From Elusimicrobiota bacterium (GTDB lineage: Bacteria; Elusimicrobiota; Elusimicrobia; UBA1565; UBA9628), in the NCBI GenBank assembly GCA_016194625.1, contig JACQBB010000437.1:1-8467 (forward strand): a stretch of 8,467 nucleotides of DNA, given 5' to 3'. The notes under the pieces were generated by a model. That model had not been told where the DNA came from, searched no databases, and worked only from the letters and a program-made list of their open reading frames with translations. The first letter of the stretch is position 1; each line of letters opens with the position of its first letter. Both the position numbers and the translations under genes were made by a program. Shown here one piece after another: positions 1 through 1,221 of this stretch.

Positions 1-1221
1 GAGGCCCTTCACGATCAGGTCCGCGGCCTCCTGCCAGCCCATGTGCTCGAGCATCATGACGCCCGAGAGGATGAGCGAGCCGGGGTTGACCATGTCCTTG
101 TTCGTGTACTTCGGGGCGGTGCCGTGCGTGGCCTCGAAGATCGCGACGCCGTCGCCGATGTTGGCGCCCGGCCCGATGCCAAGGCCGCCGACCTGAGCGA
201 CCGCCGCGTCGGACAGGTAGTCGCCGTTCAGGTTCGGCGTGGCGATGACCGAGTACTCGTCGGGGCGGAGCAGCAGCTGCTGGAAGGTCTGGTCGGCGAT
301 GCGGTCCTTGATCAGGACCTTGCCGGCCGGCATCTTCCCGTTCAGGTCGTCCCACAGCTCGGCCTCGGTGACGATCTGGTCGCGGAACTCGGTCTTGGCG
401 ACCTCGTAGCCCCAGTCGCGGAAGGCGCCCTCGGTGAACTTCTGGATGTTCCCCTTGTGGACCATCGTGACCGACGGCTTCTTGTGCGAGATCGCGTACT
501 TGATGGCCATGCGGATCAGGCGCTGCGAGCCGGTCTTCGAGATCGGCTTGATGCCGATGCCCGAGTCGGGGAACGGGATCTTGACCTTCATCTCGTTGGT
601 CAGGAAGTCGTAGACCTTCTTGTTCTCCGGCGTGCCCTGCTGGAACTCGATGCCGGCGTAGATGTCCTCGGTGTTCTCGCGGAAGATCACGATGTCCAGC
701 TTCTCGGGGCTCTTCACGGGGCACGGGACGCCCTTGAACCAGCGCACCGGGCGCACGCAGGCGTACAGGTCGAGCTTCTGGCGCAGGCCGACGTTGACCG
801 AGCGGAAGCGCGGCGTGATCCACTCGGACTGGCACTTCGGGCACTTGGCCGGGCGGTCCATCAGCTCGGCGGCGCAGTCCAGGCAGACGAACTTGAAGGA
901 GCCGGCGGGCGTGGTGAGCGGGCCCTTCAGGCCGACGCGGTACTCCTTGAACGCGGCGACCGTCTCCTCGGGGAGGACGGTGTCCTTGTCGTAGTTCTTG
1001 AGGGCGGTGAGGCCGGCGAAGACCTCCATCCAGGCGATCTTGCGCTTGCCCTTGTAGGCCTTCTCGACCGCGCCGTCCAGCACGATCTTGGTGGCCTTCC
1101 AGAGGTCGAGGCCGGTGCCGTCGCCGGGGAAGAACGGGATGATGGGGTTGTCGGGCACGTTCAGCTTGCCGTCCTTGTAGCCGATCTTCGCGCCGTCCTT
1201 CGGGACCGTGTACTTCGCCAT
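1..1221 (-). CDS. icd: NADP-dependent isocitrate dehydrogenase, C-terminus cut by window edge
   Basis: Oxidatively decarboxylates isocitrate to 2-oxoglutarate in the TCA cycle, making NADPH in the cytoplasm. The window holds 407 codons from the ATG; about 38 C-terminal residues are missing, judged against E. coli Icd. Visible motifs are FFPGDGTG near residue 30, GPLTTPAG at 100-107, RSVNVGLR at 140-147 (substrate Ser141, Asn143, Arg147, matching E. coli 113/115/119), RENTEDIYAGIE, the HKGNI lysine and HGTAPKY. The Lys371-Tyr372 pair corresponds to E. coli Lys344-Tyr345, which marks NADP rather than NAD use. Relative to E. coli, about 29 residues are inserted between PAG107 and RS141, carrying CxxC-x10-CxxC. 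The start is fixed by homology and by an AGGAGG site 8 bases upstream. It is divergent from the secreted-protein gene. Family identity is certain; the effect of the insertion is unknown. Confidence 0.97.
   Translation of the reverse strand, partial: MAKYTVPKDGAKIGYKDGKLNVPDNPIIPFFPGDGTGLDLWKATKIVLDGAVEKAYKGKRKIAWMEVFAGLTALKNYDKDTVLPEETVAAFKEYRVGLKGPLTTPAGSFKFVCLDCAAELMDRPAKCPKCQSEWITPRFRSVNVGLRQKLDLYACVRPVRWFKGVPCPVKSPEKLDIVIFRENTEDIYAGIEFQQGTPENKKVYDFLTNEMKVKIPFPDSGIGIKPISKTGSQRLIRMAIKYAISHKKPSVTMVHKGNIQKFTEGAFRDWGYEVAKTEFRDQIVTEAELWDDLNGKMPAGKVLIKDRIADQTFQQLLLRPDEYSVIATPNLNGDYLSDAAVAQVGGLGIGPGANIGDGVAIFEATHGTAPKYTNKDMVNPGSLILSGVMMLEHMGWQEAADLIVKGL
805..900 (-). other. Zinc-ribbon-like four-cysteine insertion inside isocitrate dehydrogenase
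   Basis: Codons 108-139 of icd. Cysteines 113 and 116 (CLDC) and 127 and 130 (CPKC) form two CxxC knuckles separated by 10 residues, the spacing of a small structural zinc ribbon. The segment begins right after TTPAG and ends immediately before RS141, the equivalent of E. coli Arg112-Ser113. It therefore sits in the loop that binds isocitrate and that AceK phosphorylates in enterobacteria. The reading frame is unbroken across both junctions and codon use matches the rest of the gene, so it is part of the protein rather than a sequencing artefact. Zinc binding is inferred from spacing alone. Confidence 0.85.

Follow-up and report, generated by a model that had tools for sequence, protein, structure and literature searches.

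What has happened to the active site of an isocitrate dehydrogenase (Icd) that carries four closely spaced cysteines right next to its substrate-binding serine? The question is raised by a gene at the edge of an 8,467-nucleotide stretch of DNA from an Elusimicrobiota bacterium (assembly GCA_016194625.1, contig JACQBB010000437.1), referred to here as the window. We find that the insert is genuine and conserved. It is probably a structural zinc ribbon that a clade ancestor acquired, in a single event, within the Phos loop at the active site of an NADP-dependent Icd that is normal in other respects.

The translation of window positions 790-915 on the minus strand reads TTPAG-SFKFVCLDCAAELMDRPAKCPKCQSEWITPRF-RSVNV and arranges the cysteines (codons 883-885, 874-876, 841-843 and 832-834) as C-x2-C-x10-C-x2-C within 32 residues. 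Typical Icds have three residues (such as GGI) between TTPxG and RSxNV, so the net gain is 29. A search of PDB sequences with the window Icd returned 80 distinct sequences, the best 60 of which were listed; the 20 highest-ranking ones all bear the name isocitrate dehydrogenase, and in each the best aligned stretch begins at residue 138-140, right behind the insert. The alignments to the Pseudomonas aeruginosa (5m2e) and E. coli (1ai2) enzymes both break at 108 and 139, and the insert is a gap in all 21 ribbon-free rows of our alignment A3, which holds them beside 111 ribbon rows. A chance or frameshift origin was considered and dropped because the insert lies in a single intact frame and its four cysteines recur in all 230 homologues listed. 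The coordinates, the CxxC-x10-CxxC spacing and the roughly 29 extra residues given by the sequence-only reading were thus borne out by translation, intact frame and alignment breaks, and its placement of the insert in the loop that ends at the substrate- and phospho-serine (E. coli Ser113) agrees with the alignment to solved Icds.

The enzyme around the insert is unremarkable. The minus-strand open reading frame (ORF) spans 1..1278 without interruption, and translation most plausibly begins at an ATG located at 1219-1221. The window holds 407 amino acids and its edge cuts off the C-terminus, about 43 amino acids by comparison with the homologue P0001; full-length relatives mostly have about 450. 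Even in this truncated state the protein passes the NCBIfam TIGR00183 cut-off of 567.3 bits. Columns S141, N143, R147, R157, R181, Y188, K256, D310, D334 and D338, mapped through the PDB alignments to E. coli S113, N115, R119, R129, R153, Y160, K230, D283, D307 and D311, are invariant in all 132 rows of A3. We take E. coli D311 to belong to the set of substrate and metal residues; the rest of that set is listed in PMC3521221. The NADP-type pair K344/Y345 of E. coli is retained as K371 in 110 and Y372 in all 111 of the ribbon rows (APKYT in the window). Judged from its residues, the ribbon-bearing Icd is a canonical NADP-Icd in which every substrate, metal and cofactor position that we checked is kept.

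Conservation of the cysteines was assessed in three protein searches, using the window Icd, residues 98-150 of a distant member (P0120) and the full-length protein P0182, which branches alone inside the ribbon clade. For each full-length query the best 120 matches were listed out of at least 8000 candidates, and for the P0120 region the best 82 of 102. Pooled, the matches listed comprise 230 distinct proteins, every one of which has both CxxC knuckles, as does the window, so that the close relatives do share the cysteines and the earlier call of a real architectural variant with a four-cysteine, ribbon-like module stands. Between the pairs there are 14 residues in 178 proteins, 10 in 48, 15 in two, and 12 and 9 in one each. 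Because all three queries carry the ribbon, these counts describe the ribbon clade and not all Icds. No loss of the ribbon was seen among the nearest 120 relatives listed in either full-length search. Within the ribbon rows of A3, V112, the four cysteines, E119 and F139 are invariant and R138 is present in 110 of 111; many other insert positions vary, and the top residue has a mean frequency of 0.77 within the insert as against 0.82 in the rest of the protein. Ribbons of two loci (L102 and L103) are among the shortest: their CxxC pairs are 9 residues apart, and the RP motif that precedes the second pair elsewhere is missing.

When the window Icd was compared with genome contigs, the best 80 of 594 loci were kept; the motif pattern was readable in 78 of these and revealed a ribbon in one, L001 (Elusimicrobia), while the genomes of the two unread loci (L037 and L041) gave no ribbon match. 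A ribbon-only profile (A2) likewise matched one of the 20 genomes behind these 80 loci, that of L001. In a sample of 247 genomes of the L001 phylum, drawn evenly from a larger group, at least 24 had a strong A2 match (expectation value, E, of 6e-15 or better); weak matches in four more (E 3e-5 or worse) were set aside on score. The ribbon occurs in 6 of 82 genomes of the L002 phylum, and among the candidates scored in 296 genomes drawn from the L060 phylum the sole match was a weak one (E 3.4e-4), set aside in the same way. Only 28 (L001 phylum) and 23 (L060 phylum) first-look candidates were scored in many genomes, so ribbons could be missed. TIGR00183 at E 1e-60 matched 82 of the same 247 genomes: 28 exceeded 450 bits, namely the 24 ribbon genomes and four with an uninterrupted, ribbon-free Icd, and the remaining 54 reached 345 bits or less. 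All four cysteines are in frame in 29 of the 30 strongly matched genomes. In genome G229 (L104) the Icd frame is broken ahead of the second CxxC, which stays intact, possibly through an assembly error. Source names on the ribbon proteins are Elusimicrobia or Elusimicrobiota, candidate division KSB1, Cloacimonetes, Bacteroidetes (one metagenome-assembled genome), Marinimicrobia and Armatimonadota.

A single origin is supported by a tree computed on 410 columns, insert columns excluded, from 83 Icds, of which 82 differ from one another. Its 42 ribbon rows come from the window, six loci and 35 proteins, and its 41 ribbon-free rows were hand-picked from the loci. Of an initial 188 proteins, 162 were full-length; dereplication left 111 at 90% and then the 35 at 80%. 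Proteins P0189-P0230 and loci L117 and L030 are not on the tree. All 42 ribbon rows fall beyond one branch (99/99) and form one clade with one change of state, on a bootstrap short of full convergence (0.986, where 0.99 is the mark). The ribbon thus probably arose a single time, in the lineage from which this distinct Icd clade descends. The four ribbon-free genomes of the L001 phylum (loci L115-L118) are G233, which groups with Binatota and Rokubacteria rows, G118 and G104, which group with Chloroflexota rows and one Gemmatimonadetes row, and G248 (L117), which was not placed. Since G233 on the one hand and G118 and G104 on the other fall in two groups off the ribbon clade, the placements suggest that these ribbon-free Icds were acquired separately. 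Clade-specific changes outside the insert, at positions 71, 311 and 329 among others, might be contacts; shared ancestry explains them equally well.

How could such an insert be accommodated? An AlphaFold2 model places it confidently on a canonical Icd (block means 90-96), with short strands at 111-113, 119-120 and 135-137. A single Zn(II) would be held by two CxxC knuckles close to these strands, presumably beta, and would turn a flexible nine-residue loop into a 38-residue, metal-stapled lid. The lid would fix T104 and S141 (E. coli T105 and S113), the isocitrate anchors, with whatever effect this may have on catalysis. It is because all checked residues are kept and the loop has grown to 38 residues that we read the insert as a putative metal-stapled lid on a working Icd. 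Some adenylate kinases have a zinc-bearing LID, in which a four-ligand zinc site staples the active-site lid, and the ribbon Icd might work alike, although the two enzyme families are unrelated.

In E. coli the Phos loop begins at T105 and ends at S113, two residues that anchor isocitrate. Table 2 of PMC3521221 gives this loop nine residues in all four of its subfamily I enzymes, a norm from which the 38 residues from T104 to S141, with their C4 ribbon, depart. Because this source names the Phos loop as one of the regions in which Icd subfamilies differ, we treat the ribbon Icd as a variant of the TIGR00183 family (subfamily I, E. coli-type) and not as an outsider. Subfamily II Icds (human IDH1 type) also have a lengthened Phos loop (HcIDH T78 to S95 in the same table), but there, in another subfamily, the larger loop is described as having a prominent alpha-helix in place of a cysteine ribbon. 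Length differences within subfamily I lie mostly in the ARS-like region; the Icds of B. subtilis and Nostoc likewise have lineage-specific extra residues, but elsewhere (E. coli 239-275), forming a helical hairpin in B. subtilis (PMC3521221). Literature searches aimed at a ribbon-bearing Icd yielded no description by title or abstract start, in a scope outside of which most subscription journals fall, so that a published one is possible. The sequence-only reading knew of no described Icd with this layout, and this holds within the literature searched and at the top of the PDB sequence listing. The ribbon Icd is thus a variant form of a familiar enzyme that defines a clade and has apparently not been described. 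Icd itself is textbook material, and the kinase that acts on its Ser113 loop, AceK, has been called the founding member of prokaryotic protein phosphorylation (PMC3747045); here a clade in several largely metagenomic phyla has rebuilt that very loop around a four-cysteine module. The clade offers a natural test of Phos loop function, and the ribbon a clean marker for proteins that source records call simply isocitrate dehydrogenase.

Several observations weigh against a structural zinc ribbon with a single origin. The AlphaFold2 model is metal-free and was judged by confidence scores rather than by sulphur positions; it also describes one subunit, and in a dimer the ribbon could contact the other. 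Predicted alone, the ribbon is poor (mean predicted local distance difference test score, pLDDT, 55.6; predicted template modelling score, pTM, 0.24). All zinc-ribbon Pfam matches of the window Icd are below the curated cut-offs, including PF23470 (22.5 bits for the whole protein and 23.4 for the ribbon alone, cut-off 26), so we call the insert ribbon-like and not a PF23470 member; one of the 230 homologues (P0029) has PF23470 as a precomputed domain. The homologue searches all used ribbon-bearing queries, one of them the ribbon region alone, and among the 230 proteins listed a few depart from F139 (to Y) or from R138 (to K, G or S). As to the evolutionary source of the ribbon, the Pfam scan gave weak matches only. 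A ribbon profile run against the PDB recovered 36 sequences at E up to 1, none named Icd; its top rows are C2H2 zinc-finger proteins in which each separate repeat is insignificant, and with no Icd among the rows we rejected them as a solved example of the ribbon. Binding of iron in a rubredoxin-like manner would suit the CxxC pairs too, and the weak PF23470 match, to a family described as rubredoxin-like, as well as a weak match to its solved member PF0610 (2gmg, E 0.0096), point that way. The PDB comparison, however, shows rubredoxins in two rows that are both insignificant (E 0.23 and 0.78), and we consider iron very improbable.

The position of the insert invites regulatory explanations. 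It adjoins the E. coli phospho-serine, and the larger loop of subfamily II is said in PMC3521221 to hinder phosphorylation by the kinase, so that a shield against an AceK-type enzyme, or the blocked kinase access proposed earlier, would be natural; yet a search for AceK (PF06315) that was positive in the E. coli control found it in none of the 30 ribbon genomes examined, which makes shielding extremely unlikely. The same result makes another control conceivable. With four cysteines in the substrate loop, their oxidation or the loss of zinc could disorder the loop and turn Icd off, and isocitrate could then go to the glyoxylate shunt, replacing control by AceK. The isocitrate lyase family was matched in 12 of the 30 genomes, strongly in 6 of them (best piece at E 8e-53 or below), but the other 24 lack so strong a match (the genomes may be incomplete), and a glyoxylate branch point therefore cannot explain universal conservation. 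C4 ribbons are, moreover, usually stable structural sites, and we regard the joint reading of a switch with rerouting as unlikely. It is tempting to speculate, at similarly long odds, that the ribbon acts as a lid which senses metal and redox state and controls the substrate serine loop directly; if so, several little-known phyla would share, as a fixed trait, a built-in and kinase-free gate that directs isocitrate either into the tricarboxylic acid cycle or elsewhere. Zinc ribbons also often bind proteins or nucleic acids, and the invariant E119 and nearly invariant R138 would fit a docking surface for a partner protein, a nucleic acid or a higher oligomer in place of an active-site element. 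Given that the insert sits within the substrate loop, and that the one shared neighbor seen among ten flanking ORFs of four relatives, a glycosyltransferase family 2 gene, occurs in just two relatives (a partner may be encoded elsewhere), docking seems quite doubtful, and the structural zinc ribbon is the explanation we retain.

Features of the window, all on the minus strand, with the evidence for each
Feature	Position	Strand	Evidence
NADP-dependent isocitrate dehydrogenase (Icd)	1..1221	-	TIGR00183 587.3 bits, PF00180 258.2 bits
RSVNV motif; S141, N143 = E. coli S113, N115	790..804	-	PDB alignment; invariant in 132/132 rows
Zinc-ribbon-like insert, residues 108-139 (S108..F139), between TTPAG and RSVNV	805..900	-	Translation, PDB alignment break
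Second CxxC, CPKC, Cys127 + Cys130	832..843	-	Both Cys in 111/111 ribbon rows of A3
First CxxC, CLDC, Cys113 + Cys116	874..885	-	Both Cys in 111/111 ribbon rows of A3
TTPAG motif; T104 = E. coli T105, Phos loop start	901..915	-	PDB alignment; role from PMC3521221
Patatin-like phospholipase (PF01734)	2187-2930	-	Profile match
GT4-type glycosyltransferase	3040-4191	-	Profile match
Protein with SpoIID/LytB domain, weak TPR matches	4206-6410	-	Profile match

For the gene neighborhood, ORFs were called in six relatives, Icd was recognised in four (L146, L148, L149 and L150), and ten selected flanking ORFs were scanned. No convincing conserved operon partner emerged among these ten; the glycosyltransferase family 2 gene lies near Icd in L146 and L149, and the other scanned ORFs differ. 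In L149 a patatin-like gene (5518-6249, minus strand) directly adjoins the ribbon Icd, which recalls the patatin-like gene close to Icd in the window.
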